Assembly (NCBI RefSeq): GCF_022549215.1
Contig: NZ_JAKZFC010000002.1
Coordinates: forward strand, 1-64,000
Reading direction: 5' to 3'
DNA length: 64,000 nt
Source: Solibacillus palustris
GTDB taxonomy: Bacteria; Bacillota; Bacilli; Bacillales_A; Planococcaceae
Shown here one piece after another: positions 1-38,544 of the stretch. The stretch's first letter is position 1. Each line of letters opens with the position of its first letter. Below the pieces are notes generated by a model. It was not told where the DNA came from, searched no databases, and saw nothing but the letters and a program-made list of their open reading frames with translations. The position numbers were made by a program, and so were the translations under genes.

Positions 1-2
1 TT

Positions 3-235: not shown

Positions 236-283
236 TTGCATATGCAGCTCTTTTTTCTTATTGAACTAACGGGGCAGTTTAGT
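236..283 (+). repeat. cassette repeat 1 (left part lost)
   Basis: Retains half of the hairpin (TTGCATATGCAGCTC, T6) and the right core AACTAACGGGGCAG plus TTTAGT at 264-283. The left core was removed at the IS junction. Confidence 0.9.
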
Positions 284-348
284 ATCCGCTTATAAAAGGA
301 TATAACGTTGTAAATTCATTTTAAAGTAAGAAAAGAAAGGAACAATAA

Positions 349-1323
349 ATGAAAAAAAGAAAATATAAAAGAACATATATCATTTTGGGGGTAATAACCC
401 TTTTGGTTGTTATGATTTGGATGAATAATACGAGTCTATTTTATTCGAAAGATACAAATTATAAGATTCTAGCTCATAGAGGGTTGGCTCAAACCTTTGA
501 TATTTCAAAGGTAGAGTATGATACGAATACAGCTGAAATCATTTATCCACCTGAGCATCCCTATTTAGAAAATACAATTCCTTCTATGAAAGCAGCATTT
601 GATAATGGTGCTGACGTAGTGGAATTAGATATTAAGTTAACGAAGGACCATCAATTAGCTGTTTTTCATGATTTCGCTTTAGAGTATAGAACAAATGGTA
701 AAGGTGAAGTCAAAGATTATATGATGAACGAATTGAAGAAACTAGATGTCGGCTATAGATATACGGCTGATAATGGAGGGAGCTATCCGTTTCGTGGCAA
801 AGGTATTGGTATGATGCCAAGCTTAGATGAGGTGTTTGCGGCTTTTCCTAATAAAGAGTTTTTAATTCATGACAAAGATGGAGATATGGAAACAACAAAA
901 GTATTGTGGGATTCATATTTAAGTAAAATGTCTAGGGGACAATTAAATAAAATAACAGTTTATGGTGATGTAGACGGCGAAGGATTTGATTACTTACGTT
1001 CAAAGCATGTAGAGATGAAATTGTTAACGAAAACAATGATGATAAATGCACTATTAAAATATGAATTAATAGGTTGGACGGGATATATTCCGAAAGAATT
1101 GTATAATATGGAGCTACATTTACCTTTAAAATATGCGAAGTACTTATGGGGTTGGCCAAATAAATTTATTGATAGAATGGAGTCTGTCAACACACGAGTC
1201 GTAATGGTAGAGGGAAATGGTAAATGGTCAGAAGGATTTGATACAAAAGAAAGCCTCGAAAAAATTCCAGAAGGATATCAGGGGTATATATGGACAAATA
1301 GGGTTGATAAGGTTACTAAATGA
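349..1323 (+). CDS. membrane-anchored glycerophosphodiester phosphodiesterase family protein
   Basis: A 324-residue GDPD-family protein. Residues 10-25 form one N-terminal membrane segment, so the TIM-barrel domain should lie outside the cell. Family motifs are visible: H43-R44 (AHRG), E74-N75-T76, the metal ligands E92 and D94 (VELDIKL) and H107 (VFHD). The family hydrolyses glycerophosphodiesters to an alcohol and glycerol-3-phosphate; the true substrate is unknown. The insert between the HR and ENT motifs is longer than usual. ATG follows AAAGAAAGGAA. It is the only gene between repeats 1 and 2, so it looks like a one-gene cassette. Confidence 0.88.
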   Translation: MKKRKYKRTYIILGVITLLVVMIWMNNTSLFYSKDTNYKILAHRGLAQTFDISKVEYDTNTAEIIYPPEHPYLENTIPSMKAAFDNGADVVELDIKLTKDHQLAVFHDFALEYRTNGKGEVKDYMMNELKKLDVGYRYTADNGGSYPFRGKGIGMMPSLDEVFAAFPNKEFLIHDKDGDMETTKVLWDSYLSKMSRGQLNKITVYGDVDGEGFDYLRSKHVEMKLLTKTMMINALLKYELIGWTGYIPKELYNMELHLPLKYAKYLWGWPNKFIDRMESVNTRVVMVEGNGKWSEGFDTKESLEKIPEGYQGYIWTNRVDKVTK

Positions 1324-1460
1324 TTTAATTCATCAAAAAAGTTGATTCTTCATTTTAAGGAATCGTACTTTTAAGTTATTAAAGAGCAACATTCCTATAG
1401 TGAAGAGACTGATTTTATGTGCAATGTAAGAGTAACTAAGTTTTGGAATTTGTATACTTA

Positions 1461-1546
1461 AACTAACGGGGGCTTTACTTGAAGATCATTGAGTTGCATA
1501 TGCAGCTCTTTTTTTATTATTGAACTAAAGGGGCAGGTTAGTTGAA
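1461..1546 (+). repeat. cassette repeat 2, full unit
   Basis: Left core AACTAACGGGGGC, then TTTACTTGAAGATCATT, hairpin GAGTTGCATATGCAGCTC with T-run, then right core AACTAAAGGGGCAG with GTTAGTTGAA. The left core is preceded by ACTTA, shared with several other copies. The hairpin should terminate transcription from the gene upstream. Confidence 0.95.
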
Positions 1547-1554
1547 CAGTGTTG

Positions 1555-1578
1555 TTTAACAATCGGGCCAGATTGTTA
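1555..1578 (+). repeat. site family D, copy 1
   Basis: TTTAACAATCGGGCCAGATT: inverted arms ACAATC and GATTGT around GGGCCA. It lies 8 bp after a family-1 right core. Confidence 0.65.
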
Positions 1579-1707
1579 TATGACTTTTTACAAATTTCAG
1601 TTTTGCCAAAGTCTGAACAAAGCTTTTATGAAGAAATGATTACTCCGCAAGATATATCAAAAAATAAATGGAGAACCTTGATACCCTATAGGTAAAGGAG
1701 GAAGCCT

Positions 1708-2595
1708 TTGTTGTATAATTACGAAATTATAATTAAAAAAATTATTATGTATGTGGAAGAAAACTTACATGAGCCTCTTACTTTAGAAAACATTGCTTCA
1801 CAATCAAATTTTTCAAAATACCACTTTCATCGAATATTCCAATCCACGGTTGGTATGACGGTAAATGAATACATTCGGTTAAGAAGATTGGCTAATGCTT
1901 CTTCCGCTTTGCTTTACACAAGTGAACGCATTCTTGACATTGCTATATACTATCAATTTGAATCACAAGAATCATTTACGAGAGCATTTAAAGAAGTTTA
2001 CAGGCTGCCACCTGGCAAATATCGCAGAATGATGTCTGACGTGATAAAAAATAAGGAGGAATCAAATATGGAAACAAAGGTGAAAGGTTGGTTTTTGAGT
2101 GGGTCAAATCCATTTAATTATGAAATGGGAATTGATCATGAAGTTGTTCATCAGGGAGTGGCATCAGGTTATTTAAAATCCAAAACAGTATTAGATTCAA
2201 CTGAATTCTCTACTATGATGCAAACATTTAAGGCGAATCAGTTTGTTGGGAAACGTATTCGACTCTCTTGTTTCATCCGTACAAAAGATGTAGACACGTA
2301 CACTGGAATGTGGATGCGAGTAGACGACACAATGGGAGATGTTCTTCAATTTGATAATATGAGTAACCGCCCTATTAAGGGCAACACAAATTGGAACCGT
2401 TATTCCATTATTTTAGATGTACCAGTTCAAAGTGCTGTTATTTCGTTTGGTATTATTCTGGCTGGACAAGGTACGGTATGGGCAGATCAATTTATTTTTG
2501 AAGAAGTGAATGAAAGTATTCCAACAACTAATTTGGAGGTGCATGGTGAACTGCTGGATGAGCCGATAAATTTATCGTTTGATGAAGAAATATGA
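1708..2595 (+). CDS. AraC-family transcriptional regulator with C-terminal beta-rich domain
   Basis: A 295-residue protein. Residues 5-105 form the double HTH of AraC regulators (ENIASQSNFSKYHFHRIFQS, then the conserved DIAIYYQFESQESFTRAFKE and PGKYR signature). Residues from about 115 (METKVKGWFLSG) form a separate domain rich in beta-type segments with WADQFIFEEV near its end, resembling ligand-binding or carbohydrate-binding folds; I cannot assign a ligand. TTG start at 1708 follows AAAGGAGG at 1694-1701. First gene of the cassette; the next two genes are small membrane proteins that it may control. Confidence 0.85.
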   Translation: MLYNYEIIIKKIIMYVEENLHEPLTLENIASQSNFSKYHFHRIFQSTVGMTVNEYIRLRRLANASSALLYTSERILDIAIYYQFESQESFTRAFKEVYRLPPGKYRRMMSDVIKNKEESNMETKVKGWFLSGSNPFNYEMGIDHEVVHQGVASGYLKSKTVLDSTEFSTMMQTFKANQFVGKRIRLSCFIRTKDVDTYTGMWMRVDDTMGDVLQFDNMSNRPIKGNTNWNRYSIILDVPVQSAVISFGIILAGQGTVWADQFIFEEVNESIPTTNLEVHGELLDEPINLSFDEEI

Positions 2596-2614
2596 TTTAA
2601 GGAAAGGTGATAAC

Positions 2615-2761
2615 ATGGCTATTTCAGGAAAACAAGCTAGCGGGATTGTATTAAGTGTTATTGTTATAATCGTAATTATGGCTGTAAAGTTTGTAGGAAT
2701 TAATACGCTTTTCTTAAATCACGAAGTGATGGAAACCGTTGATATCTCAATTAATACATAA
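2615..2761 (+). CDS. 48-residue membrane peptide
   Basis: ATG at 2615 is preceded by GGAAAGGTGATAAC, a good ribosome site. The peptide begins MAISGKQASGIVLS and has one strong hydrophobic stretch (IVLSVIVIIVIMAVKFVGI). No family recognised. It lies 19 bp after the AraC stop and 19 bp before the next start, so the three are probably one transcript. Confidence 0.6.
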   Translation: MAISGKQASGIVLSVIVIIVIMAVKFVGINTLFLNHEVMETVDISINT

Positions 2762-2780
2762 TGAAAGGTTTGATAATTTA

Positions 2781-3368
2781 ATGTTAATTGAAATGAAAGA
2801 GGCTTTCCTTTTTTTATTGGACATCTATAAAGGAAAATTACCTCAACCTGATTTGTATTTACTTGGATTAATTATGGTCATTATGCCTCTTGCTGAATCT
2901 ATACAAGAAAGAAGAAAGAAATCAAGTAAAAGTAAAAAATGGGGTATTATATATTTGAAATGGATTCCTATCTCATTTTTAGTTAGTTCTATCTATTTAT
3001 CTGGGTTTTATTTTATTACAAATATGTTTAATAATTTCTTTTCTACGCCTGAAGTTTTTCATCAGCAACAAAGTTTACGCTCAATTGCGATAATGTCTTT
3101 GACTATGGCGAGCATTGCTTCTTTAATTGTTTCTATTTGGAATTTAAACATATTGTTTGTAGCTAAAAAAGTCTTATTTACCTTTATTATTAATTCATTG
3201 TTTATAGTTATCGGTATGTACCTAATAAATATAACTTGGTATGAAATTATTAAATTACCATTATGGTGTTATGGATTAATTGGAGTGATAAATACAATAT
3301 TTATGTCCTTTTTATTGTGGGAGGAAAATGAAGAATTGGTGCAAATGCAAAGTAATGAAATACGATAA
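2781..3368 (+). CDS. multi-pass membrane protein, unknown
   Basis: A 195-residue protein with about five hydrophobic segments (around LYLLGLIMVIMPLAES, YLKWIPISFLVSSIYLSG, IASLIVSIWNL, VLFTFIINSLFIVIGMYL, GLIGVINTIFMSFLL). ATG 2781 is chosen over an in-frame upstream ATG at 2739 that would overlap the preceding gene; GAAAGG lies 12 bp ahead. I do not recognise the family. Its position after an AraC regulator suggests a regulated membrane function, perhaps transport or sensing. Confidence 0.6.
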   Translation: MLIEMKEAFLFLLDIYKGKLPQPDLYLLGLIMVIMPLAESIQERRKKSSKSKKWGIIYLKWIPISFLVSSIYLSGFYFITNMFNNFFSTPEVFHQQQSLRSIAIMSLTMASIASLIVSIWNLNILFVAKKVLFTFIINSLFIVIGMYLINITWYEIIKLPLWCYGLIGVINTIFMSFLLWEENEELVQMQSNEIR

Positions 3369-3798
3369 TTCGCATATGATTTCGGTAATAGAAGAGTATG
3401 AATAAACGTCGGAGCAACTAAGAAACTGGATCGAGAAAATTTTAGAGAATAATAAAGAAAAGCTAGTCGTAGCGGAAAGCAGAGGGCAGATTGTTGGTAT
3501 GATTGTTTTTCGCTCAAAAAGTACTAAAAGGCTTTCTCACACTGGTTCTTTTACGGCAATGGTCAAAAAAGAGTATTGCAATCAGGGCATTGGTAAACTG
3601 CTGATAAAAGAACTTTTAAACTGGGCGGAACATAATACATTAATAGAGAAAGTTAGTTTAGGTGTATTATCAACAAACCAAAGAGCTATCGAATTGTACA
3701 AAAGTATGGGATTTGTTGAAGAAGGACGTAAAATTAAAGAAGTTAAGTTTAGTGATGACTTTTATGTGGATGATATACTTATGTATAAACTGGTTTAA
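3328..3798 (+). pseudogene. GNAT acetyltransferase with an in-frame stop near the N-terminus
   Basis: A frame from ATG 3328 (after GGGAGGAAA) hits TAA at 3403-3405, then continues open as TSEQLRNWIEKI, LVVAESRGQIVGMIVF, CNQGIGKLLIKELL and NQRAIELYKSMGFVEEGR to TAA 3796-3798. This is a complete GNAT core with the acetyl-CoA loop (Q-G-I-G-K) and the C-terminal Y-x-x-x-G-F. Homologues normally have an N-terminal strand before the TSEQ region, so the nonsense codon, and possibly a deletion beside it, disables the gene unless translation restarts at 3499. It overlaps the end of the preceding membrane gene. Confidence 0.7.
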
Positions 3799-3878
3799 CC
3801 CTTTTTTCGTTCAACCTTTTTATCAAACGGAGTGCTACTATATAAGGTTATATTTTTATTTGTGAAGAAATGCACTTA

Positions 3879-3902
3879 AACTAACGAGGTGCGTTAGTTG
3901 AA
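3879..3902 (+). repeat. cassette repeat 3, single core
   Basis: AACTAACGAGGTGC followed by GTTAGTTGAA: perfect arms AACTAAC/GTTAGTT. Preceded by GTGAAGAAATGCACTTA, an upstream extension also seen at copies 4, 18 and 19. Confidence 0.9.
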
Positions 3903-4331
3903 TATTCGCTTTCCGAAATAATCATTTTTTTACAAAGCAACATCAAAAGAGTTCGAACACATTTGATATATATAATATGTTTGAACTCTTAATTTACATA
4001 TGTTTGAATATCGTTACCTTAAGATAAATTTATAATAAAGTTTGATTAAAATCATCTTTCCTCTGTAGATTTCATAGAGGTTAGATGATTTTTTACTGGA
4101 TATTTATGTTAATTGTTGATATATAAAAAGATTGATAATTTAAAACAAAGTTTGATTAAACCCTGTATGTTAGGGGTTTTCTTTTGACCCTTTAATTTCA
4201 TCTAGAATGTTCAATTAAAGAGCCTGCTTGTAGAGGATTTTAACTGGATTTTTAGAGTTATTATTTAAATAGGGATTTTGAAGTCTTTTGGTGAATATTA
4301 AATATTAATTTAAAAGATGGAGGTTGATGTG
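3903..4331 (+). other. gene-free stretch with hairpins
   Basis: No convincing gene. It holds an inverted repeat AAGAGTTCGAACACA / TGTTTGAACTCTT (about 3949-3991), two copies of AAAGTTTGATTAAA (about 4037 and 4147), a strong hairpin AAAATCATCT / AGATGATTTTTT enclosing CCTCT/AGAGG (about 4049-4095), and AAACCCTgtatgttAGGGGTTTT (about 4157-4181). The AAAGTTTGATTAAA motif recurs inverted near 5024, on the far side of the DinB gene, so it may mark the ends of an older cassette. Confidence 0.5.
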
Positions 4332-4847
4332 ATGTTGAAGCTGTTTCAATATAACTGGCAAGTTCGTGATGATTGGTTTACATTGTGCAAAAACATACCG
4401 GATGAAGAACTATTAAAGAAACGGGTCGGTGGGTTCGGCAGTATCCTACATACCCTATTTCACATTGTGGATGTGGAATATATGTGGATTTTAGGTCTGC
4501 GGGGTGAACCAGTGCCTGAGGAGCCATTGTTTAAAGATTATGCTAATTTACAAAAAGTGAAAAATCTTTCAGCTCAATACCAGGAGAAAGTGAAGCCATT
4601 TGTGACATCTTGGACAAATGAAATGGATTCTCGGAAACTTTCAGAAGCTGATTTCAATAAAGAACCAATTAGCTCTAGAGACGTACCAATCAGGCGCCGA
4701 GTCATTGAATGTACACATGGAGAGATCCTACGTCATGTCATTGTCCACGAAATCCACCATATCGGCCAGTTATCTATATGGGCACGTGAAATAGGAAAGG
4801 AGCCTGTTTCCGCAAATCTGAGAGGAAGAGGACTATTCGATAATTAG
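4332..4847 (+). CDS. DinB-family protein (YfiT/DinB four-helix fold)
   Basis: A 171-residue DinB/YfiT-type protein. The family has three metal-binding histidines on a four-helix bundle; here they are most likely in ILHTLFHIVDVEYMW near the N-terminus and RHVIVHEIHHIGQLSIW near the C-terminus. Members often act as thiol transferases (bacillithiol S-transferases) or in damage response; the specific role is unknown. ATG 4332 is chosen because GGAGG lies at 4319-4323, 8 bp ahead; the upstream in-frame ATG 4317 overlaps that site. DinB-type genes are common cassette cargo. Confidence 0.8.
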   Translation: MLKLFQYNWQVRDDWFTLCKNIPDEELLKKRVGGFGSILHTLFHIVDVEYMWILGLRGEPVPEEPLFKDYANLQKVKNLSAQYQEKVKPFVTSWTNEMDSRKLSEADFNKEPISSRDVPIRRRVIECTHGEILRHVIVHEIHHIGQLSIWAREIGKEPVSANLRGRGLFDN

Positions 4848-4862
4848 ACTGCCTTTACCAAT

Positions 4863-4885
4863 TTCACAATCGGGCGGTATAATGG
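4863..4885 (+). repeat. site family D, copy 2
   Basis: TTCACAATCGGGCGGTATAA then TGG; followed by CACAAGGATCA, which also follows copy 6 at 35601. Confidence 0.55.
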
Positions 4886-5086
4886 CACAAGGATCAAGAA
4901 ATGATCAAACTTATTTATAAACGAATGGTTTAATTGAATATAGTTAAAGCGTGTTTTGATCAATCTTTTTTTCAAAACGCACTTTTTCTATTTACCATTT
5001 TATCAAGGTCTATAGAGTCAATTTAATCAAACTTTAATTCAAAGCTACATTAATGTAATTGTAAGGATTGTGAAGAAATGTACTTA

Positions 5087-5110
5087 AACTAACGGGGCAG
5101 TTTAGTTCAA
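5087..5110 (+). repeat. cassette repeat 4, single core
   Basis: AACTAACGGGGCAG then TTTAGTTCAA. Preceded by TGTGAAGAAATGTACTTA. No left core or T-run hairpin of its own. Confidence 0.92.
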
Positions 5111-5183
5111 GAAGGAGTAACTTCAAAATTATAGGGATTTACAACGCTAAGTTAAGAAATGTGACCAAACGACGCTTTGGGAA
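5111..5183 (+). repeat. tail A, copy 1
   Basis: About 73 bp shared with 8211-8280, 8931-9007 and 19264-19336, always directly after a right core. Landmarks: AAGGAGTAACTTCAAAATTA, GGGATTTACAACGCTAAGTT, then the palindromic end ACCAAACGACGCTTTGGGAA. Confidence 0.85.
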
Positions 5184-5243
5184 GATTTATTTTCGAGTAT
5201 GTTACAATTTAACTACCAAATATTAGGGAGGATGTGCTTAGGA

Positions 5244-5723
5244 ATGTCAAAAGATATTGTTAACTTCGTTTTACCAATGAAAACATTTGATACAACTAAA
5301 ATGGACTCGTGGACTAAAGAACAGTGGCAGGAGTATAATGGAGATGAAAAGGATTATGTAAGCATACAAATATTGCTGATGAATGATAACGATTTTTATC
5401 TGGAAATAATGAGAATTTACTTTGACGAAGCAACAGACGAAATGTTTTTTTGTTTTGATACTCAAAATAAATTTGATAAAAATATAAATATTCAATTCGG
5501 TCAATGGAGAATTGATGATAGTATTTATAATTTATCTAATGAAAAGCCTCTGTATTTGGAGAAATTTTCTGGTGTTAGAGGATTTCAAAAATGCGTAAAG
5601 CGACATCATTTAGAAGATTGGGACAATACCATCATTGAACTAAAGATTTTAGATGCTGAAACCAATACAATGATTAGAGAACTTGAATTTCAAATAATTA
5701 AACAGTATACACAAATTTTTTAG
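5244..5723 (+). CDS. hypothetical cassette protein, 159 residues
   Basis: Soluble, acidic, no membrane segment or signal. Contains NFVLPMKTFDTTKMDSWT and a Trp/Phe-rich middle. I do not recognise the family. ATG 5244 is preceded by GGGAGG at 5226-5231 with 12 bp spacing; ATG 5232 touches that site and cannot use it, and the earlier in-frame ATG at 5199 lacks one. It sits between tail A and a family-C site. Confidence 0.6.
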   Translation: MSKDIVNFVLPMKTFDTTKMDSWTKEQWQEYNGDEKDYVSIQILLMNDNDFYLEIMRIYFDEATDEMFFCFDTQNKFDKNINIQFGQWRIDDSIYNLSNEKPLYLEKFSGVRGFQKCVKRHHLEDWDNTIIELKILDAETNTMIRELEFQIIKQYTQIF

Positions 5724-5783
5724 TAATTCGCATAGATATTAAGTACAACGAAATTTAATAATATATACAAACACATACAAAAT

Positions 5784-5809
5784 AACGTTCCCAAATGGAA
5801 GTTAGGGAA
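5784..5809 (+). repeat. site family C, copy 1
   Basis: AACGTTCCCAAATGG then AAGTTAGGGAA, followed by a hairpin AAACACCCCAT / ATGAGGTGTTT (5812-5842) and then CCCCAAACCTAGATTGG with TAACGTTA (5868-5894). This mirrors the family-1 plan: core, hairpin, core. Confidence 0.6.
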
Positions 5810-5947
5810 TAAAACACCCCATTTAATTGTAATGAGGTGTTTGCTTTTTGCTGCTTATAATCAGTAAGTCCCCAAACCTAGATTGGTAACGTTATTTTTG
5901 ATTCCACACACTAGTTGAGTTAGAATTTTCTAGAGGAGTGAAGATAT

Positions 5948-6292
5948 ATGGGACAACTTTGTTATAGTGATTTTGAACTTGTTAAAGAAACCGAAACGGA
6001 TGGTTTTATTTACGGTGAAATAACTGACCATTTTTACTTTGAAAATGGGGATGCTTGCATTTCTGGAGATGGATTTGTTCAAGCACCAGACGGTAGTAGA
6101 GCAGGCATAATATGGGGACTAGAAAAAGAACCTTCAATATCTGTTTGTATAGAGCCAGAAGAAGACAGATGGGGCGTTTACGAAATAGGGTTTATCAAAC
6201 CTATAAAAACAATGGATGACTTAATCGTAAATTTTAGAGCTGTTTTGCCACTGATAAAAGAAGCCTATCAAAATGCACATTCAACAAAATAA
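5948..6292 (+). CDS. hypothetical protein, 114 residues
   Basis: Small acidic soluble protein (GDACISGDGFVQAPDGSRAG, IEPEEDRWGVYEIGF). ATG follows GAGGAGTGAAGATAT, a good ribosome site. No family recognised; its small single-domain, cysteine-poor acidic form resembles immunity-type or cassette proteins of unknown function. It lies between two family-C sites, so it may be a cassette bounded by that family. Confidence 0.65.
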   Translation: MGQLCYSDFELVKETETDGFIYGEITDHFYFENGDACISGDGFVQAPDGSRAGIIWGLEKEPSISVCIEPEEDRWGVYEIGFIKPIKTMDDLIVNFRAVLPLIKEAYQNAHSTK

Positions 6293-6313
6293 ATATGCAT
6301 TTCACATTGAATA

Positions 6314-6341
6314 AACGTTCCCAAATCAAAGTTTTGGGACG
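6314..6341 (+). repeat. site family C, copy 2
   Basis: Arms CGTTCCCAAA and TTTGGGACG around TCAAAGT; the best palindrome of this family. It is followed by a hairpin with a T-run. Confidence 0.65.
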
Positions 6342-6570
6342 AAATAAAACACTTGAAACGTTGTCATACCAATGTATTAAGTGTTTTTCTGTATTTCGTT
6401 CAAATACACCTTTTTATGCACTATCGTTTGAACTAAGATACAACAAAACTTTCAATGCTGTTCAAAAGAAATTGCACTGGGTCATATTTTGAATAAAATC
6501 CTGCAAATACAGGGGATTCCTTAACGTTATAAATCAACCTTTTCTTATAACCTAGCCTTTTTCTTTATTG

Positions 6571-6656
6571 AACTAACGGAGTGCTTTACTTGAAGATCAT
6601 TGAGTTGCATGTGCAGCTCTTTTTTCTTTTTTAACTAACGGAGCAGGTTAGTTGAA
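6571..6656 (+). repeat. cassette repeat 5, full unit
   Basis: AACTAACGGAGTGC, TTTACTTGAAGATCATT, hairpin GAGTTGCATGTGCAGCTC with T-run, right core AACTAACGGAGCAG with GTTAGTTGAA. Confidence 0.95.
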
Positions 6657-6701
6657 GAACAAACTCTAACTCTAACTGTTTCAAAAAAAGGGGGGTATTC
6701 A

Positions 6702-7136
6702 TTGCATCCAGCTGAACTAATTGAATTGAGCATAGTCGGTGGGATTTTACTTGTTATTCTATTAGTTTCTCTTATTTTGAAAGGAAAATGGAGAAAAATT
6801 ATTCAAGGATTGGCTATTTTACTTTTGTTGTCTTTTGGTATTTTTTATTTTGTACGTCCATATTGGATTGATATGCAAATTGAAAAAAAAGTAGGTTATA
6901 TACAGATACATTTGGAAGAACAGTACCCTGGGGAAACGTGGGAATATAGGACAGTGCCTCATCGTGTGGACGGCTATAAACACCTGAATCCATATTATAT
7001 AGGCGTAATATTTGATACTGAACCACTAGTGGAATATAAATATTTCGCCCGTAATAAAAGTGATATTATCCAACAAGGGTGGGATACATCTGATTTACAA
7101 AGTGACCTAATACATTTAGAAGGTTTAGGAGAGTAA
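6702..7136 (+). CDS. two-span membrane protein with extracytoplasmic C-terminal domain
   Basis: A 144-residue protein with hydrophobic segments at about 8-27 (LSIVGGILLVILLVSLIL) and 34-52, then about 90 exposed residues (KKVGYIQIHLEEQYPGETWEY, HLNPYYIGVIFD). The arrangement is close to small YfjL/DUF3139-like anchored proteins of Bacillales, but I cannot name the family. TTG start at 6702 after GGGGGG. Single gene between repeats 5 and 6. Confidence 0.65.
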   Translation: MHPAELIELSIVGGILLVILLVSLILKGKWRKIIQGLAILLLLSFGIFYFVRPYWIDMQIEKKVGYIQIHLEEQYPGETWEYRTVPHRVDGYKHLNPYYIGVIFDTEPLVEYKYFARNKSDIIQQGWDTSDLQSDLIHLEGLGE

Positions 7137-7210
7137 TTACTGGTTATTATAAGTTTCATCTTCTCTTATTGATTTGATTATTAATCTTCATTATGTTCTT
7201 AATGATCTTC

Positions 7211-7266
7211 AACTAACAGGGGCTTTAGTAAAGTAGAGCAACGTCATTTAAGACGTTGCTCATTTT
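7211..7266 (+). repeat. cassette repeat 6, left half (left core and hairpin)
   Basis: AACTAACAGGGGC, then a different hairpin: GAGCAACGTC (7236-7245) / GACGTTGCTC (7252-7261) followed by ATTTTAC. No right core follows; the recombinase gene starts here instead, and a lone right core lies beyond it at 8188. The hairpin can serve both converging genes. Confidence 0.85.
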
Positions 7267-7270
7267 ACAT

Positions 7271-8110: not shown

Positions 8111-8187
8111 TTCTATTCCCCCTAATAAAGTGATATTAATGGAATTATTACCAATTTAATAGAATAATAGACATATGGAATGTTTTT

Positions 8188-8280: not shown

Positions 8281-8369
8281 AGACTTTATAAAGGGTTATC
8301 AATACTAGGTAGAGAATAAAAAAATATAGGTGTTATTTGTATATTAAGTAAAGTTTCAGGAGGGATAAG

Positions 8370-31213: not shown

Positions 31214-31338
31214 AATATCACCTTTTCATATTTTAATTGCATAATTGTAAAATCAATTGCATGTTAGTTAAGTGATTTTAACAATTAATATCTTTTAACA
31301 ATAATTTCTTAATGATTTTTTATAAGGAGTGAAGAACA

Positions 31339-31776
31339 ATGTACCATGATGAAGATTTAAATTTTAAAAAACTTGAGGAATTATCCTTGCTGGTGCTGCG
31401 AAAATTCACAATGGCTTATACTACACCACCGGAAGCCAAAGAAGCTAGGGTATCTAATTCCCAATATTTAATTCTAGAGATTCTGAGAAATGAAGGCAAA
31501 AAGAGTAGTACTGAGTTGGCTCAATTCTTTAAAATTACATTGCCCGCTGTTACAAATTTATCAAAAAAGCTAGTGGACGGTGGCTATATAGAGCGTATTC
31601 ACTCTGAATCAGACCGACGCCTCATATTATTACAAATTACTCAAAAGGGACTACATTTCTTAAATGTGATAGATAAGACGGGGGAAGACATCATCAAAAA
31701 ACTTTGGGGAAATTTATCTTCGGAAGAAGTAAAGCAGTTAAATTCCATATTTCAAAAAGCATTAGAAGAGAAATAA
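31339..31776 (+). CDS. MarR-family transcriptional regulator
   Basis: A 145-residue winged-helix protein: SSTELAQFFKITLPAVTNLS (recognition helix), KKLVDGGYIERIHSESDRR (wing with the conserved D-R-R) and dimer helices at both ends. Divergent from the pentapeptide gene with 125 bp between starts, so it may repress that gene and itself. ATG after AAGGAGTGAAGAAC. Confidence 0.88.
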   Translation: MYHDEDLNFKKLEELSLLVLRKFTMAYTTPPEAKEARVSNSQYLILEILRNEGKKSSTELAQFFKITLPAVTNLSKKLVDGGYIERIHSESDRRLILLQITQKGLHFLNVIDKTGEDIIKKLWGNLSSEEVKQLNSIFQKALEEK

Positions 31777-31933
31777 AAATGACAAACAAAAAAGTACACC
31801 GATTCATTTATGATTATACTAGCCATAGATAAAATGTACCCATTAGTACAATAAAAAATGAAGTCACTCCTGCATTAAGGTGGATTTTTATTAAGTTGGC
31901 TTTTTATGGAGATTGTTTGGATATGTCTTATTG

Positions 31934-32017
31934 AACGAACGGTGGCTTTACTTGAAGATCATTGAGTTGCTTAGGCAGCTATTTTTTCTTATTGAACTAA
32001 AGGGGCAGGATAGTGAA
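31934..32017 (+). repeat. cassette repeat 22, full unit
   Basis: AACGAACGGTGGC, hairpin GAGTTGCTTAGGCAGCT with T-run, right core AACTAAAGGGGCAG with GATAGTGAA. The next ATG is only 15 bp away. Confidence 0.92.
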
Positions 32018-32031
32018 GGAAGGGGAATTTT

Positions 32032-32364
32032 ATGAAGAGTAAAAGAATTTTATTGTCGGCTATAACAATTTCTGTTGCCTTTTTGATTGTTTTTTTAATT
32101 TATAATTCTTTTTCGTCTTTGTTAACTGTAACTGATTTTACTGTCACTGAAAAAGGGTATTCTAACGATAACAATGAAGCATGGATAAAGGGATTTAACC
32201 CCAATGCCCCAGTGGGACATCATGAAGTGATTAAAGTAATTGTTAGGGAACCAATGGTAATGAATTTAATTCAGAAAGATAAGACATACTTCGTAAGATA
32301 CACGATAAAAAGAAATGATTTAATTTTTCTTTGTGATATTGAAACTATTGAGGAACACAAATAA
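32032..32364 (+). CDS. membrane-anchored small protein, 110 residues
   Basis: One N-terminal anchor (about 5-25, ILLSAITISVAFLIVFLIY), then an exported beta-type domain (VIKVIVREPMVMNLIQKDKT, YFVRYTIKRNDLIFLCDIE), resembling small Bacillus anchored proteins of unknown function. ATG 32032 lies 15 bp after the right core with AGGAAGGGGA between, so the whole 5' region is 14 bp; any promoter must lie in the repeat itself or upstream. Confidence 0.65.
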   Translation: MKSKRILLSAITISVAFLIVFLIYNSFSSLLTVTDFTVTEKGYSNDNNEAWIKGFNPNAPVGHHEVIKVIVREPMVMNLIQKDKTYFVRYTIKRNDLIFLCDIETIEEHK

Positions 32365-32376
32365 GCTTAGTTCTTC

Positions 32377-32461
32377 AACTAACGGGGGCTTTACTTGAAG
32401 AACATTGAGCTGCATATGCAGCTCTTTTTTCTTATTGAACTAACGGGGCAGGTTAGTGCAA
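32377..32461 (+). repeat. cassette repeat 23, full unit
   Basis: AACTAACGGGGGC, TTTACTTGAAGAACATT, perfect hairpin GAGCTGCATATGCAGCTC with T-run, right core AACTAACGGGGCAG with GTTAGTGCAA. Confidence 0.96.
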
Positions 32462-32515
32462 GAAGGATAAGCTATAATTATGGTAAAATACAGGTAAAGA
32501 ATTGCTTAACTTTTG

Positions 32516-32541
32516 TTCAACAAACGGGACATTTAGTGAAA
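32516..32541 (+). repeat. site family D/1 hybrid, copy 4
   Basis: TTCAACAAACGGGACA then TTTAGTGAAA: left arm like family D, right arm like family 1. Confidence 0.45.
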
Positions 32542-32648
32542 GAAATTTATTTTTTTAATTTCACAGGGAAGGCATGGTCGTTTAAATAAAGGGTTTTGGA
32601 GAAATGTAGTTCAAAAATGTGATTTCATTAATTTGGAGGTAAGATTAG

Positions 32649-33398
32649 ATGAATATAAAATTTGACCAAAACAACGTCGTTATTAAACTCTGTATGAGTG
32701 GGATGAACATGGAAGATGGCGGAAATGTTGAAGGTGCAACCAAGATGTTTCATCAAGCATGGCACGAAGCAAAAGACGACTATGAAAGGTTTATTGCAGC
32801 TTATCATTTGGCTCGTAAACAAAAGAGTATTACAGACAAATTGAAATGGATGGAAACCTCTTTACAGTGTGCACTAAATTTAAATGATGATAATGTTAAG
32901 AGTGCATACTCAACGTTATATTTAAACATTGCCAAATGCTATGAGGAGTTGTGTGATTCTGATAATGCAAAAAGAAATTATGAATTGTCAAACTCATATA
33001 ACGGTACACCTTCTGATGAAGGACCATTTTATCATGGGACAAAGGCAGATTTACAGGTTGGTGATTTGCTGACAGCTGGTGGAAATTCAAATTACAAACC
33101 TGGGCTTAAAATGAACCACATTTATTTCACTGCTAATGCCAATGGTGCAGGACTTGCAGCAGCATTAGCAAAAGGAGAAGGAAGAGAACGCGTTTATAAA
33201 ATAGAACCAACAGGTGAATTTGAAAACGACCCAAATGTTACTGACAAAAAGTTCCCGGGTAACTTAACACGATCTTATCGTTCTCAAGAACCTTTAAGAA
33301 TTATTGGTGAAGAAACTGAGTGGACGAAACTGACAACTACGGAGCGAAGTGAATGGCGCAAAAATTTAGCCAAAAACAAGGGCGAAATTATTAACTGA
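32649..33398 (+). CDS. rifampin ADP-ribosyltransferase (Arr) with N-terminal helical domain
   Basis: A 249-residue protein. Residues 124-249 are an Arr domain: GPFYHGTKADL (H129), MNHIYFTAN (Y159), EPTGEFENDPNVTDKKFPGN (D194) and TRSYRSQEPLRI match the family's NAD and catalytic residues. Arr moves ADP-ribose from NAD+ onto rifamycins and inactivates them. Classic Arr proteins are about 140 residues. Residues 1-120 form an added alpha-helical, TPR-like domain (AYHLARKQKSITDKLKWMET, AYSTLYLNIAKCYEELCDSD). ATG after TTGGAGGTAAGATTAG. arr genes are well-known integron cassettes, which fits its place between repeats 23 and 24. Confidence 0.9.
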   Translation: MNIKFDQNNVVIKLCMSGMNMEDGGNVEGATKMFHQAWHEAKDDYERFIAAYHLARKQKSITDKLKWMETSLQCALNLNDDNVKSAYSTLYLNIAKCYEELCDSDNAKRNYELSNSYNGTPSDEGPFYHGTKADLQVGDLLTAGGNSNYKPGLKMNHIYFTANANGAGLAAALAKGEGRERVYKIEPTGEFENDPNVTDKKFPGNLTRSYRSQEPLRIIGEETEWTKLTTTERSEWRKNLAKNKGEIIN

Positions 33399-33450
33399 AC
33401 ATATTTCAAATGGATTAAAATAGTTACTTTGTTTGCAATTACCAATATTC

Positions 33451-33532
33451 CGTAATCGGTGCTTTAGTAAAGATCGTGGGGTTGCTTAGGCAACTCTTTT
33501 TTCTTATTGAACTAAAGAGGCAGTTTAGTTAA
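33451..33532 (+). repeat. cassette repeat 24, full unit, left core diverged
   Basis: CGTAATCGGTGC, TTTAGTAAAGATCGT, hairpin GGGTTGCTTAGGCAACTC with T-run, right core AACTAAAGAGGCAG with TTTAGTTAAA. Confidence 0.88.
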
Positions 33533-33600
33533 ACAAATAGATAACTTTTATAAACTGGGCAAACTACCTTAAGTGATTAAATAAGGTGGTAATTAATAAT

Positions 33601-33996
33601 ATGAAAAACAAACAGTTTATCTTTATTTTGGCTTTATTCGTTGTGTTATTGACGTTATTTGCTACGGGAGTAATGTTATCGAACAAAGATACAGCTGAAG
33701 CTGAGAATGTTGGTGCTGAAAAAAAACACTCTGATTTATATGATGTATTATTAGTTTTATTAGACCCTGAAGCAAGAAAAGTAATTAATAAGGAATTCCC
33801 AAATCGTAGTTATGCACTTTGGAATGCAGAAATATTAGAAGTAAAGCGACTAACTGGCGGGTATTCTCAATATGATTTTACTGTGAAAGTAAAATATGAT
33901 ACGTATACAGGTCCTTTTAATCCACCTGAAGGTCCTATTACAATAACCTTTCATGTAACAACAGATGGGGTTTCGGTAGTGAAAATTCAAAAATGA
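33601..33996 (+). CDS. DUF3888-family exported protein
   Basis: A 131-residue protein with an N-terminal signal/anchor (about 5-24). The mature part matches the Bacillus DUF3888 pattern: LYDVLLVLLDPEARKVINKE, NAEILEVKRL, then GPFNPPEGPITITFHV. Function unknown. ATG 33601 is preferred (AAGGTGG ten bases ahead) over GTG 33586, which overlaps that site. Between repeats 24 and 25. Confidence 0.8.
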   Translation: MKNKQFIFILALFVVLLTLFATGVMLSNKDTAEAENVGAEKKHSDLYDVLLVLLDPEARKVINKEFPNRSYALWNAEILEVKRLTGGYSQYDFTVKVKYDTYTGPFNPPEGPITITFHVTTDGVSVVKIQK

Positions 33997-34020
33997 GTCT
34001 CGATACACTGTATCTAATTT

Positions 34021-34105
34021 AACTAACGGGGGCTTTACTTGAGAATCATTGAGTTGCATATGCAGCTCTTTTTTCTTATTGAACTAACGGGGCAGTTTAG
34101 TTGAA
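34021..34105 (+). repeat. cassette repeat 25, full unit
   Basis: AACTAACGGGGGC, TTTACTTGAGAATCATT, hairpin GAGTTGCATATGCAGCTC with T-run, right core AACTAACGGGGCAG with TTTAGTTGAA. The left core lies 24 bp after the stop codon of the gene before. Confidence 0.96.
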
Positions 34106-34146
34106 GAAGGCAATAATGAATTTACCGAAAGATGGGAGATATTCAT

Positions 34147-34623
34147 TTGAAAAAATGTATTCTGCTAATGTTATTTAGCTTCACCTTAATCTTATCTGCT
34201 TGTTCCCAAACTGAGGAAGACACAGAGGAATATGCAGGGATTATTGGTGATGAACAAACTTTGGGTTATGAGTACACAGTATCAAAAGAACAAAATAGAT
34301 TTTTTTGGGAGATTGGCTACAAAGGAGATATATCTATTATCGAAGAGTGTGCTGCCAATCAAGAAGATTTAGTAAATTACATGAATGCTGTAAATGATAG
34401 TAAATTGGTATTGGCAAAACTAATTACATCGGTATCATACTTATTAATAATTATTATAACAACGCTTTTCCTTTATAAGAAAAATAGAAAAACGCTTAAA
34501 GATAGCGGTGTAGTTATAACTATATTATCAGGTATTGCAATATATATTGCCTTCAAATCATCATTTGATTTAATTGGATTATTACAAGATACAAAATACT
34601 ATTACTTGATACTAACTAATTAA
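34147..34623 (+). CDS. lipoprotein with two C-terminal membrane spans
   Basis: A 158-residue protein. TTG 34147 (GGGAGA upstream) gives MKKCILLMLFSFTLILSACS, a clear lipoprotein signal with lipobox LSAC; ATG 34132 would be only five residues longer. After an acidic exported part, two spans follow (LITSVSYLLIIIITTLFLY, VVITILSGIAIYIAF). Family unknown. Its stop TAA (34621-34623) overlaps the next repeat's left core. Confidence 0.7.
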   Translation: MKKCILLMLFSFTLILSACSQTEEDTEEYAGIIGDEQTLGYEYTVSKEQNRFFWEIGYKGDISIIEECAANQEDLVNYMNAVNDSKLVLAKLITSVSYLLIIIITTLFLYKKNRKTLKDSGVVITILSGIAIYIAFKSSFDLIGLLQDTKYYYLILTN

Positions 34624-34704
34624 GCTAACGGGAGCTTTACTTGAAGATCATTGAATTGCTTAGGCAGCTCTTTTTTCTTATTGAACTAAAGGGGCAGGTT
34701 AGTT
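34622..34704 (+). repeat. cassette repeat 26, full unit, overlapping a stop codon
   Basis: AAGCTAACGGGAGC, TTTACTTGAAGATCATT, hairpin GAATTGCTTAGGCAGCTC with T-run, right core AACTAAAGGGGCAG with GTTAGTTTTA. The first two bases belong to the lipoprotein stop codon. Confidence 0.94.
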
Positions 34705-34888: not shown

Positions 34889-35350
34889 ATGATTAAGGGA
34901 CTTTATGAAGCACATTTACCAGTAAGTAATTTAGAAAAGTCTATCGCTTTTTATAAAAAAATAGGTTTGATTTTAGACCATATTGTAGATAATAAAATTG
35001 CCTTTCTTTGGGTTGAGGAAAACAAAAGTTGGATAGGACTTTGGGAAACAGATAAAGTAAATATCGAATACCACCCATCTATTAGACATTTAGCTTTTCA
35101 AGTGGAACTAGAGGATTTGAAAGTGGTTGTTGAATGGTTAAAAGAAAAGGATATATATGCAAGAGAAGCATTCGGATTTAAGCCTGTAGAACCCTTCGTT
35201 ATGGCACGTAATGATTATGCTCATGCTAAAATACATTTTGATGATCCAGATGGCAACAGTATTGAGTTGATTTGTAAACTACCGAATCCCCGTAATATCA
35301 CAAACCGTATGTATTTAAGTGAATGGGAGAACTTAAATAAAACTGATTAA
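34889..35350 (+). CDS. VOC-superfamily (glyoxalase/fosfomycin-resistance fold) protein
   Basis: A 153-residue two-module VOC protein. Metal-type ligands: His in GLYEAHLPVSNL (module 1), His in IRHLAFQVE, Glu in DPDGNSIELICKL (module 2). KNIGLILD-type and WLKEKDIYAREAFG segments fit the fold. It may act on a thiol adduct or antibiotic, but the chemistry cannot be read from sequence. ATG after AAAGGGGTTGATGAA. VOC genes are common cassette cargo. Confidence 0.82.
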   Translation: MIKGLYEAHLPVSNLEKSIAFYKKIGLILDHIVDNKIAFLWVEENKSWIGLWETDKVNIEYHPSIRHLAFQVELEDLKVVVEWLKEKDIYAREAFGFKPVEPFVMARNDYAHAKIHFDDPDGNSIELICKLPNPRNITNRMYLSEWENLNKTD

Positions 35351-35626: not shown

Positions 35627-36377
35627 CAAGGATCAGCCTAAAATTAATAAGTGAATATGTTAATGTGTAAAGCATCTTGTAATTTTCAGGGTGCTTTTAT
35701 TTTGTTGTTTTTAGGAAGTGAAAAACGTTTCACATTGATTTCACACTTTAGTGCGCGAATAACATTTACTCAATTTGAACTTGTAAATCTCAAAAGTATA
35801 AAGCATCTTAAAGAGTTGGTATTACTGAATTTGTAAAGTGCAGTAGAGGTTAACAGAATATGAGATATGTAAATGTGATGTATATGATATTTAATGTGTA
35901 AACCAGGGGAATTGTGTTAGAGCAATATTTATCAAACAACATAACGACAGGCGATGTGGCTCATGCTTTGTCGTCTTTTTTGTTGCATTTATTATTCTAT
36001 AGAAATAAATTTAGGTTCTCCTAGCGAAATATAAAAAGCCTGCGGGTCTCGCGAGGCTCAAAAACGGTCTAGATATAAGTAGGAAAAAGGCGTTCCTTCC
36101 ACCCGTTTAGCAAAACCAAAGCTATATTTGAGAAATGAGGGGTACTCTGTAAGATAAAGTACAAGTAATTGTACTTTAAACCTTATTAAATAATGGCTTA
36201 TATATAATGTTTCACATTTTTATTTTGCATAAATTTTACTTAAAAAAGCTGTCGTTTTGAATAAAGATTAATCAAAATGACAGCTTTATTTTATTTTTAA
36301 TAACTGTTTTTTATAAAAAAGATTGATTATTTTAAATCTCTTTATTCCACAAATATCTAACTACCCAGCGTCTCTAA

Positions 36378-37634
36378 CTAAAATGAAGCAGTTATTTTTT
36401 GTGGAAGTTTATTACTCATTTTACTTAACCCAATAAATATAATCACAATGATTAATATAATCGGGGCTAACTCTTTCGGGAAAAATAGCATTAGAGACAG
36501 TCCTACTAGTAAAGGTGTCTTTAAAATAGAGATCGAAGCACTACTACCTATAACAGCTACGATAAAGAGCATATCTAGTTGTGGAAACAGCGTCGCGATA
36601 GCGTAGCCTTGTAATATGGAAGCGAATATTACTGGTAAAATATTTCCACCAACCCAACCTGACTTTAAACAAAACTCCATTAAAACCAGTTTTAAAACAG
36701 AAGCCAAAATTAATGTAGCAATCGAAAGTGTCGGTACTAAACTAGGCAAAGCTTGCATAGAAAGTTGGCCGGAAAAAAGTAGATTAGGAGCAATTAAAGA
36801 CATCAAACCAATACCAATACCACCGATAAAAGCACATAAAATAATTTTATTTTTGATTTTAGAAAAGAATTTATTCAATGTTCTTTCTATTAGTTCATAT
36901 AGTTTACTAAACAAAATACCAAACAATATTAAAGGAATAAAAAGAACCAATTCATCCAAACCCCAATTAGTTTCCCCTAATTTTGTCACAAAAGGGGGTT
37001 GGTCTGATATTTTTATTAAAAACATAAAGGCAACCATACCGTTAACAATAAATACCATATATAAAAATTTTTTAAATAAAAGCAGCTTTTTCTCTTTAGG
37101 AGCCCGATCAGGATCATAGGAAATGAGGTAGTTATGAGGTAATGCTAATTTTTTCAGTCTAATTAACCAAGATTCCTTTTTCCATTCGTTGTATGAAAAA
37201 TAAAAGTAACGCATTTTATCTCCCTGCCATACCGATAACGCAATAACAGAACTTAATATGGCTGCTGCGGGACCTACACTTGCACCAAAGATTAAAATAA
37301 AAAAAGCAATTAAAAAATTGAGCCATACATATGAATAGTCAATTCTTTGAGTTGTTTTTAATTCAATAATAGAATCATTAGCTGTTTTAGGCAGATTTCC
37401 CCACTTATACCTGCTAAAACCTACTAAAATACCACCAAAAATACATAAAAATAATGTATAGATGAAGGGTGTATTTAAATTATTGGATATGTCAGTCCAT
37501 AAAAAATCTGTCAACCCATTAACTAAAATTAAAAAAACAGAAGAAATAGAACCAATTATCCCACTTAGAATTAAGCCATAAACAAGTAATCCGATTATTT
37601 TAAAGTACTTCTCAGTCAAAATAAAATTCCCCAC
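36378..37634 (-). CDS. ClC-family voltage-gated chloride channel-like protein
   Basis: A 418-residue protein with about ten membrane helices. The first ion-path loop is GASVGPAAAI (family pattern G-x-x-G-P) and the second KSGWVGGNILPVIFASILQGYA (pattern G-x-F/W-x-x-x-x-P-x-x-x-x-x-x-x-x-G). The external gating Glu found in G-R-E-G-P of transporters is replaced (V-G-P-A), so it may be channel-like or divergent. Minus strand, with its own terminator; probably not part of the cassette series. Confidence 0.75.
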   Translation of the reverse strand: MGNFILTEKYFKIIGLLVYGLILSGIIGSISSVFLILVNGLTDFLWTDISNNLNTPFIYTLFLCIFGGILVGFSRYKWGNLPKTANDSIIELKTTQRIDYSYVWLNFLIAFFILIFGASVGPAAAILSSVIALSVWQGDKMRYFYFSYNEWKKESWLIRLKKLALPHNYLISYDPDRAPKEKKLLLFKKFLYMVFIVNGMVAFMFLIKISDQPPFVTKLGETNWGLDELVLFIPLILFGILFSKLYELIERTLNKFFSKIKNKIILCAFIGGIGIGLMSLIAPNLLFSGQLSMQALPSLVPTLSIATLILASVLKLVLMEFCLKSGWVGGNILPVIFASILQGYAIATLFPQLDMLFIVAVIGSSASISILKTPLLVGLSLMLFFPKELAPIILIIVIIFIGLSKMSNKLPQKITASF

Positions 37635-37817
37635 TTTTAAAATGTATATTAAGACTCTCTCTTGTTGCTTTAAGTAACTCTACTCATTTGAAATACTAAT
37701 AAGTATAATTATGTCGATATAATTATACTTGACTATACAATGAAAAGCTACTTTATATGAGTACCTTCATTGGAGTGCTTTTATTGTTTTTTCTCTTAAA
37801 GAGATTTATCATATCCG

Positions 37818-38003
37818 GAATGTGAATAGTTATCAAAGCCGTTTAAAGAGCTAGATGGACGTTTTAATGGTGTAGCGACTAAATATCTAGACCATTATTT
37901 GAGCTGGTTCCAATTCTTAGACACCTTCAAACATATAAAAGATAACTTTACAATAACCAAAATGGTTTTAGACAGTTGTTCTTTCTCAGTTAACGTAACT
38001 TAA
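37818..38003 (+). pseudogene. IS1595-family transposase, C-terminal remnant
   Basis: NSYQSRLK in one frame continues, after a frameshift near 37852, as RFNGVATKYLDHYLSWFQFL and DTFKHIKDN. This is the conserved C-terminal H-x-x-x-R-F-N-G-V-x-T-K-Y-L-x-x-Y-L-x-W-F end of IS1595 transposases. Its stop at 38001-38003 lies within repeat 28. Confidence 0.75.
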
Positions 38004-38019
38004 GGGCAGGTTAATTCAA
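37997..38019 (+). repeat. cassette repeat 28, diverged core
   Basis: AACTTAAGGGCAG with GTTAATTCAA. Confidence 0.7.
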
Positions 38020-38090
38020 TAATCGGAAGGAAAAAGGTAGATAGAAAGGGAACTATTTGATATACCGGATTAAATAAAGGAGTGAAGGCT

Positions 38091-38462
38091 ATGAGTAAAT
38101 CATTTATTGAACAAGTACATTATATTAGAATTCCTGTAAAAGATTTAGAACTGTCTGCACAATGGTATAGAGATGTATTAGGGCTCCAGTTACTAAACAA
38201 TACTGAGGAACTTGCAATATTAAAAGTAAATGAAGGACCTTTCTTACTTATCTTAGTTCCTACCGAAGATGAAACATTTGCACATTTTACAATTGATAAT
38301 GAACAAGAATTTAGCATTGGCTTTACAAGTCCAGAATTATCTAAATTTCATCAACACTTAATTGATAATCAAGTTAAGGTTGAGGATATAAAAGAAGATA
38401 ATGGTCATGCCTTTTTCCACTTTTATGACCCAAATGGTAATAAACTTCAAGTACACTGGTAA
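38091..38462 (+). CDS. VOC-superfamily (glyoxalase-like) protein
   Basis: A 123-residue two-module VOC protein: His in VHYIRIPVKDLELSAQWYRD, FTIDNEQEFSIGF at the module border, Glu/Gln in FYDPNGNKLQVHW (the last ligand position is Q rather than E). ATG 38091 with AAAGGAG at the right distance; GTG 38082 overlaps it. Last gene of the array, between repeats 28 and 29. Confidence 0.85.
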   Translation: MSKSFIEQVHYIRIPVKDLELSAQWYRDVLGLQLLNNTEELAILKVNEGPFLLILVPTEDETFAHFTIDNEQEFSIGFTSPELSKFHQHLIDNQVKVEDIKEDNGHAFFHFYDPNGNKLQVHW

Positions 38463-38489
38463 GATTATAATAAATAAATTACCTTATTT

Positions 38490-38544
38490 CATTAACGGGT
38501 GCTTTAACGGAATAAGAACGGGAACGTCCAAATCAGACGTTCCC
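38490..38544 (+). repeat. cassette repeat 29, left half; end of array
   Basis: CATTAACGGGTGC followed by hairpin GGGAACGTC (38520-38528) / GACGTTCCC (38536-38544) and T6. No right core follows, and no copy is seen in the remaining 25 kb. Confidence 0.85.

Follow-up and report, generated by a model that had tools for sequence, protein, structure and literature searches.

Putative mobile gene-cassette arrays with an Xer-like recombinase in Solibacillus palustris and other Bacillales

The described systems closest to the one considered here are the superintegrons of Vibrio, the single-protein Xer systems and the dif (pdif) modules of Acinetobacter. Vibrio superintegrons are long one-direction arrays of small, often unknown genes, which turn over within a species and lie mostly in the leading-strand direction; their recombinase gene points away from the cassettes and has a site beside its start. 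The arrays described here share these features, that of the recombinase in the lineage of the window. XerA of archaea, XerH and XerS resolve dimers at one dif site. The pdif modules are described as having short palindromic cores, in islands on chromosome and plasmid, and as encoding only sites, depending on host XerC/XerD and alternating C/D and D/C (PMC12907356). Integrons are called extremely rare in Firmicutes: IntegronFinder 2.0 is reported to have found one complete integron, in Limnochorda pilosa, plus a few CALIN, integron cassette arrays without integrase (PMC9024848). The subject of this report is a stretch of 64,000 nucleotides, hereafter the window, comprising positions 1 to 64,000 of contig NZ_JAKZFC010000002.1 of Solibacillus palustris (assembly GCF_022549215.1), in which an earlier note, made from the letters alone, had described an integron-like array of gene cassettes. 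With a probability of roughly 0.84 we take it for one of the mobile gene-cassette arrays of a Bacillales chromosome, with cassettes bounded by half-sites of one 35-nt core and with a dedicated Xer-like recombinase. What sequence comparison offers in its favour is an insertion absent from relatives, turnover within the species, breakpoints that lie in the core and not outside it, spacer bases that go with neither neighbour, and co-occurrence of recombinase and cores; that this recombinase is what acts, that circles are the intermediates, and where the cuts fall, we infer. No description of such a system was among the literature matches listed, in a search outside which bioRxiv and most subscription journals lay.

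The core, AACTAACGGGGCAG, allowing up to three mismatches, has 30 matches in the window, all on the plus strand, where 2.6 (standard deviation 1.6) are expected, and the roughly 30 directional copies of one repeat first noticed are thus the correct count, though one of the matches, at 47780, falls outside the array. The 35-nt consensus, from a matrix built from 200 copies, is CTTATTGAACTAAC GGGGCAG KTTAGTTGAATAAG, i.e., inverted arms of ~14 bp each and between them an asymmetric spacer of ~7 nt (GGGGCAG or GGGGGC). Scanned with this position-weight matrix, the window has 21 gene-side cores (AACTAACGGGGCAG KTTAGTT) that count as strong, with a score of at least 26, all on the plus strand of an array spanning 264..34697, with their first A at 264, 1523, 5087, 6633, 8187, 8909, 11177, 12078, 12967, 14587, 15466, 16491, 19240, 19953, 21008, 30237, 31995, 32438, 33510, 34082 and 34684. 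At a score of at least 16 it finds 295 cores in stretches of three genomes of the genus, among them the window, and the same sequences reversed yield 0. The source genome (3.99 Mb in 42 contigs) has the core in several clusters and several of its contigs start or end near one; the window itself starts at a contig end within the array, whose left end is outside view. On the right the array had been drawn as far as 38544, which is too far: the last core is at 34684 and the right end at about 36 kb. From 36265 on the window is collinear with the complete genome of a second member of the species (four long blocks, 95.9–97.2% identity), and because of this the CLC-type channel gene (36378–37634) and second VOC gene (38082–38462) there belong to the species flank.

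Do the cassettes move? Three genomes were compared, the source genome, the conspecific one just mentioned (G001) and one from another species of the genus (G007), and cutting at cores yielded 234 units with a median length of 1057 bp. Twenty-nine of them recur, forming 13 clusters, and no clustered pair is adjacent at more than one place. Unit F1 is 99.4–99.9% identical in all three genomes with different neighbours each time; F4, carrying a GNAT gene, is present at another locus in the conspecific genome (96.9% over 651 bp), and F5, carrying an alpha/beta hydrolase gene, is 98.8% identical in G007, again between different neighbours. An array is found at the same locus in G001, where window positions 36265..44506 (plus strand), the chromosomal flank common to the species, match C1:2633510–2625614 as a right flank of ~8 kb. 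To the left of this shared flank the two genomes have in common only terminators, cores, short pieces (none above 173 bp) and one cassette end (window 2–283, 97.5%, cut by the contig start). The flanks that lie ~32 kb apart in G001, some 20 kb of that being between the first and last core there, are 0.2–1.4 kb apart in the four relatives examined (G015, G008, G013 and G004), which have no array at this locus. A larger set, 523 cores (score at least 26) from 101 sequences, was searched for pairs of cores with 85% identity or more over the 160-bp flank on one side. The downstream flank alone is common to 59 pairs, the upstream alone to 182 and both to 1, so that 241 of 242 are one-sided. Pairs linking differently labelled genera or records make up 21/60 of the same-downstream and 93/183 of the same-upstream ones, counts that overstate transfer as the loci were chosen by recombinase and some labels are mere identifiers; gene-side pairs across genera remain, e.g., Sporosarcina limicola and Psychrobacillus (96%). 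Cassettes thus appear, from these alignments, to be gained, lost and reshuffled at the sites, and the earlier note's proposal that the repeats are recombination sites and the genes cassettes, changing at cores between strains, is well supported by shared units that have different neighbours and break inside the core, by other genes at the same locus in the second genome and by the relatives that lack the array.

Could the copies instead be dispersed repeats, of terminator or miniature inverted-repeat transposable element type, that stay put while homologous recombination or other mobile elements turn the genes over? Many copies do hold a terminator hairpin, and repeats do invite homologous recombination. 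However, repeats fixed in position with the same genes, the outcome that had been named as fatal to the cassette idea, are not what the 241 one-sided pairs against 1 two-sided pair display, the change of linkage falls between positions 0 and 14 of the core, the copies have a single polarity and, as described below, terminators are exchanged independently, all of which makes dispersed repeats very improbable indeed.

The position of that change within the core is informative as to the kind of exchange. Clusters (37 and 32) were the unit of counting for linkage, and the controls came from the same genomes. The upstream cassette is tracked by bases as far as about position 0 and the downstream one by those from 14 on: with flanks at least 95% identical, position −1 tracks the upstream cassette at 0.85 (control 0.40) and position 14 the downstream one at 0.94 (control 0.45), and in the linked flank most of the bases that vary agree in 0.8–1.0. 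Spacer positions 8 and 9, at the same flank identity, track neither side clearly (0.47–0.59; controls 0.45–0.57). On the simple reading both strands would be cut 6–8 nt apart and the spacer become heteroduplex. In integrons, where the bottom strand is exchanged at a single position, the spacer would be expected to stay with one of its neighbours; that positions 8 and 9 track neither clearly is indirect evidence against single-strand exchange of this kind.

Many copies of the core are two-part, with a left core (AACTAAC GGGGGC TTTA...) and a terminator hairpin upstream of the gene-side core, and others have no recognisable left core. Under a strict pattern, left cores number 180 cases against the 523 gene-side cores, at a median distance of 60 bp. 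In positions 1–40000 of the window the pattern AACTAAC..GGGGGC.TTTA has 12 matches, of which 11 are plausible and one (3522) is inside a gene; a left core with its hairpin, a type A terminator module, occupies 1461..1508 on the plus strand, and further left cores are at 3879, 6571, 7211, 11115, 16006, 16435, 19892, 32377, 34021 and 34623. Terminator-like sites in 1–20000 number 19, compared with 8.1 (standard deviation 3.2) in shuffles. What accompanies a given gene is not constant: terminators vary for one and the same gene in units F1, F7 and F12, and are present or absent in F5 and F8, the switch being located at the core. Among pairs with a shared upstream end and a terminator at each place, 11 have different terminators and 5 have the same one. 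Fourteen further pairs have a terminator at one place and a gene at the other; two of these are trivial, with sites 33–39 bp apart in one place, and 12 remain, several from the same units. The terminator hairpins of ~60 bp are, on these comparisons, exchanged independently, just as cassettes are.

Some features favour a true chromosomal integron, with an IntI-family enzyme and attC sites recombined as folded bottom strands: the two-part unit of left core, hairpin and right core, which resembles the R''-L''...L'-R' arrangement of integron sites; the long polar arrays of small cassettes; and a recombinase gene that runs counter to the array and has a site shortly before its start codon. Five two-part units were folded as single strands. 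None of the five bottom strands pairs end to end in the minimum-energy fold, in keeping with the view that the sites differ from attC, and in four of the five units neither strand has a better fold than its shuffles. The fifth (32372–32462) folds well (z −6.8), yet as three local hairpins. The top strand does pair end to end in two of the five (1456–1546 and 11110–11200), at energies like those of shuffles. Covariation of the arms is absent, both across cores and between the two ends of a cassette, and a hairpin gains no support from it. To this are added the spacer bases linked to neither side, the shortfall of left cores relative to gene-side cores, and the fact that cores with no recognised left partner also move. 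The further contrary evidence, from the recombinase, is set out next; taken with it, we judge an integron proper to be improbable. An early reading of the two-part unit as attC was dropped, on the terminator swaps, the spacer linkage, the non-covarying arms, the recombinase being a cassette and the folds.

The recombinase gene, at 7271..8110 on the minus strand, i.e., opposite to the array, encodes 279 aa (PF00589, 5.2e-40). Like the single-protein Xer systems, it matches the NCBIfam XerA_Arch model (NF040815; 222.1 bits, cut-off 220), and its nearest solved kin are XerC-like, XerD and XerA, so that the initial description of it as Xer-like stands. R138, K162, H228, R231, H254 and Y263 are conserved in an alignment of 17 (R231 being K in one), and, with catalytic roles assigned by analogy with other tyrosine recombinases, the protein is a simple tyrosine recombinase with a catalytic R-K-HxxR-H-Y set. 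The IntI models, on the other hand, are missed: TIGR02249 gives 89.4 of 265 bits, with the best stretch being the last part of that model, NF011946 gives 56.8 of 435, and IntI4 is only sixth among solved kin with 55.7 bits. The recombinase has a cassette of its own, 7211..8200, consisting of left core 7211, terminator hairpin 7236–7261, the gene and core 8187, the last being 77 bp upstream of the start codon. The gene is a cassette itself, reversed, because in 22 relatives homology stops at its cores. These relatives, with at least 85% recombinase identity, are from Psychrobacillus, Lysinibacillus, Sporosarcina and Paenisporosarcina, and 800 bp was compared on each side where available. In none of the 22 loci does homology to the window go more than 5 nt past the cores; its furthest extent is 109 nt upstream and 65 nt past the stop. 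The upstream core is reached in 20 of the loci, the left core in 15, and elsewhere homology ends short. An alignment with the G007 and G012 copies is further evidence for this cassette. The 3′ fragment of a second recombinase copy (23010..23495, minus strand) has 96% identity to residues 119–279.

How general is the association of recombinase and core? In a scan of one genome per species, the best 80 of 91 relatives are 77 distinct loci, spread over many genera of the Bacillales; layout was taken from the 52 whose match is nearly full-length, and a tree from 38 of those 52 (no stop, at least 255 aa). Among 35 loci with at least 77% recombinase identity, 179 cores are opposite to the gene and 9 on the same strand, 8 of the 9 being opposite cores read backwards. 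A core is 74–79 bp upstream of the start in 23 of these 35, close to the gene as attI, the entry point of new cassettes, is to an integron integrase, though here it forms the end of the recombinase's own cassette; one locus, L107, has no core. The distant loci (49–65%; Peribacillus, Robertmurraya, Cytobacillus and others) have the same-strand layout in 16 of 17, with cores 52 to 0, although two of the 16 have no core; the reversed-sequence control gave 0. In 7 of the 16 there is a core 31–38 bp behind the matched end of the gene. On the recombinase tree the layouts cluster, with 4 changes against 17.1 in shuffles, the label ‘opposite’ being assigned by default, even where cores were few; parts of the tree are weak (of 44 inner branches 13 are starred and 22 open), and the lineages rest also on identity and layout. 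In phage records 17 have kin of the recombinase, all below 60%, and among the ten matches listed the identity is 32–35%; in the viral contigs searched there was no relative of it. Tyrosine-recombinase frames of 31–34% identity are also seen in tandem, at G007:C1:2606934–2611245 and G006:C1:355291–359679, with open frames of 654 and 632 aa, and the cluster in G007 sits close to an array.

Co-occurrence was counted in 261 genomes of the family, to which a search at the level of the order contributed no others, with a recombinase threshold of E 1e-60: 72 have a recombinase match and 133 at least one core, the 2518 cores in total comparing with 4 matches of a reversed control pattern. At least five cores are found in 36 of the 40 genomes that have a recombinase, or fragment, of at least 76% identity versus 22 of the 189 with no match (Fisher 2e-22). 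This bears on the idea that the cores are dif-like modules moved by host XerC/XerD, with the window's recombinase a passenger. Short palindromic sites of double-strand type are what Acinetobacter dif modules have (PMC12907356), and arrays persist in genomes with no dedicated recombinase. Nevertheless the strong co-occurrence of cores with the window type of recombinase, the fixed distance between core and recombinase at many loci, in two lineages whose layouts are opposite, and sites that are direct instead of alternating render host XerC/XerD, acting with a mere passenger beside them, unlikely. A consensus of the Bacillus subtilis dif type had no match in five genomes at three mismatches.

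A dedicated recombinase acting by double-strand exchange has itself to contend with several observations. The 22 genomes with at least five cores and no recombinase match include one with 140 (G091), and when 12 of the 22 were searched again, 3 had fragments only and 9, G001 among them, nothing nearer than 34%; either the gene was lost from such arrays or another enzyme acts on them. Of 32 genomes with only distant kin of the recombinase, 8 also have at least five cores. The distant locus L146 (46%) has 8 cores on the opposite strand, contrary to its identity class, and in a third group, kin of 57–66% in the same family, the five examined (G009, G192, G197, G226 and G232) have no core within ~10 kb. 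As to the exchange, spacer position 9 leans slightly downstream (0.59, control 0.45) in core pairs that come from 37 and 32 clusters and hence are not independent; bases 8 and 9 could be unusually mutable, and a single pair has both sides conserved, in which the spacer is identical. Around the distant kin of G197 and G192 a repeat search gave no core-like family among the 20 largest of 47 and 43, and an inverted-repeat scan of the five 57–66% loci found no recurring core, though a repeat at L194:17215 resembles one. Several genomes, among them G091, G001 and G156, have up to 140 cores and no intact recombinase was found in them; enzyme-less arrays have a parallel in the CALIN of integrons (PMC9024848).

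How, then, might mobile arrays with a dedicated Xer-like recombinase work? Each cassette would be bounded by half-sites of the 35-nt core, and the 279-aa protein most likely binds the arms and pairs two directly repeated cores, would cut both strands 6–8 nt apart and then exchange strands. A cassette would leave as a circle with one core, or enter at any existing core, and the asymmetric spacer would hold the cassettes in one direction. The recombinase gene lies in its own reversed cassette and the ~60-bp terminator hairpins are separate mini-cassettes, interchangeable behind genes. Of the cassettes up to 2.5 kb, 138 have their longest open reading frame running with the array and 15 running the other way, and 4 have none of 60 aa. 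Of 161 cores in stretches of G001 and G007, 160 follow the strand whose GC skew, calculated with the arrays included, is positive; its sign changes at 2.13–2.15 Mb in G001 and 1.78–2.08 Mb in G007. The direction of replication rests on this skew because the B. subtilis-type dif pattern matched nothing in the five genomes.

The integron-like array of the earlier note therefore keeps its cassettes, which genome comparison favours, and loses the name, on the IntI model, the attC fold and the double-strand type of exchange; integron-family membership is not supported. Unlike Vibrio superintegrons, there is no IntI here and no attC-like bottom-strand fold in the five copies, the exchange is of double-strand type, and there are several arrays per chromosome, a recombinase inside a cassette and terminators as separate modules. 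The parts resemble dif modules more closely than attC cassettes, yet the sites are direct repeats, unlike the C/D–D/C opposite orientation of dif/pdif modules, and of another sequence, the enzyme travels along in a cassette of its own, and more than 100 sites per genome are possible. Unlike the sites of XerA, XerH and XerS, core matches lie among genes and reach 184 per genome (G148). We think it reasonably likely that the Bacillales have a cassette system of their own, parallel to integrons and of separate origin, which would combine a self-mobile Xer-type recombinase cassette, a double-strand core and interchangeable beads (genes, terminators and recombinase). A genome would have several arrays along the leading strand and as many as ~180 sites, and the system, common to several genera and also borne on plasmids, would be for Gram-positives what integrons are for Gram-negatives. 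These are tyrosine-recombinase cassette arrays, with a real chance that they deserve the status of a separate system. If the system works as proposed, a large Bacillales cassette pool has been overlooked, perhaps because searches target IntI and attC. It would then allow one to ask why recombinases, terminators and cassettes have evolved as separate beads, give comparisons of mechanism a double-strand equivalent of attC, be a reservoir of small unknown genes and perhaps serve as a genetic tool.

Plasmids enter the picture in two cases. The 266-kb Sporosarcina psychrophila plasmid pSP10-266k (L200) has a recombinase of 94.6% identity and, in the 39 kb fetched, five opposite-strand cores with a GNAT gene between two of them; merA and merR adjoin array cores there (cores 15401–21174, merR 14906–15304). 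A Peribacillus simplex plasmid (L201) has a 62.7% copy and three same-strand cores in the 19 kb fetched; ~1.3 kb upstream of this array-type gene there is another for a tyrosine recombinase (WP_061466473.1). Cores on plasmids and resistance-type domains in the window's array make it worthwhile to follow how such cores pass between genera.

As to the genes of that array, cassettes on the plus strand hold a GDPD family phosphodiesterase (349..1323, PF03009), an AraC-type regulator (1708..2595, PF12833), a DinB family protein (4317..4847, PF05163), a gene with no Pfam match (5199..5723), a small-protein gene likewise with none (6702..7136), the GNAT acetyltransferase of F4 (11523..11972, PF13673), the alpha/beta hydrolase of F5 (12260..12907, PF20408), an MFS transporter (13263..14474, PF07690), a gene with no Pfam match at 1e-5 (20163..20822), an Arr-type (rifampin ADP-ribosyltransferase-like) C-terminal domain (32649..33398; PF12120 3.1e-44, NF033144 139.1 bits, cut-off 130), DUF3888 (33586..33996, PF13027) and, as the last cassette gene, a VOC/glyoxalase family member (34889..35350, PF00903). 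On the minus strand are a MazG-type cassette gene (14818..15132, PF03819) and a pentapeptide-repeat protein gene (30566..31213, PF13599), which has a MarR-type regulator beside it (31339–31776, PF01047), while 16854..18919 holds a TetR-type regulator (minus) and a DHA2-type MFS gene (plus). The 9.2-kb interval between the cores at 21008 and 30237 is not a compact cassette and looks like a scar or composite insertion; it contains the 3′ recombinase fragment, LysR, DUF6198 and, by eye, amidohydrolase-like and MFS-like genes. Four cassettes share a 93-bp 5′ module (5088–5180, 8188–8280, 8910–9002 and 19241–19333), whose copies are 62–91% identical to the first and end in CCAAACGACGCTTTGG or near it, and which is possibly a promoter or leader bead. 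Beyond the array, a Bacillaceae-1 RNA (RF01690; 37.2 bits, gathering 35) is at 44876–44942.

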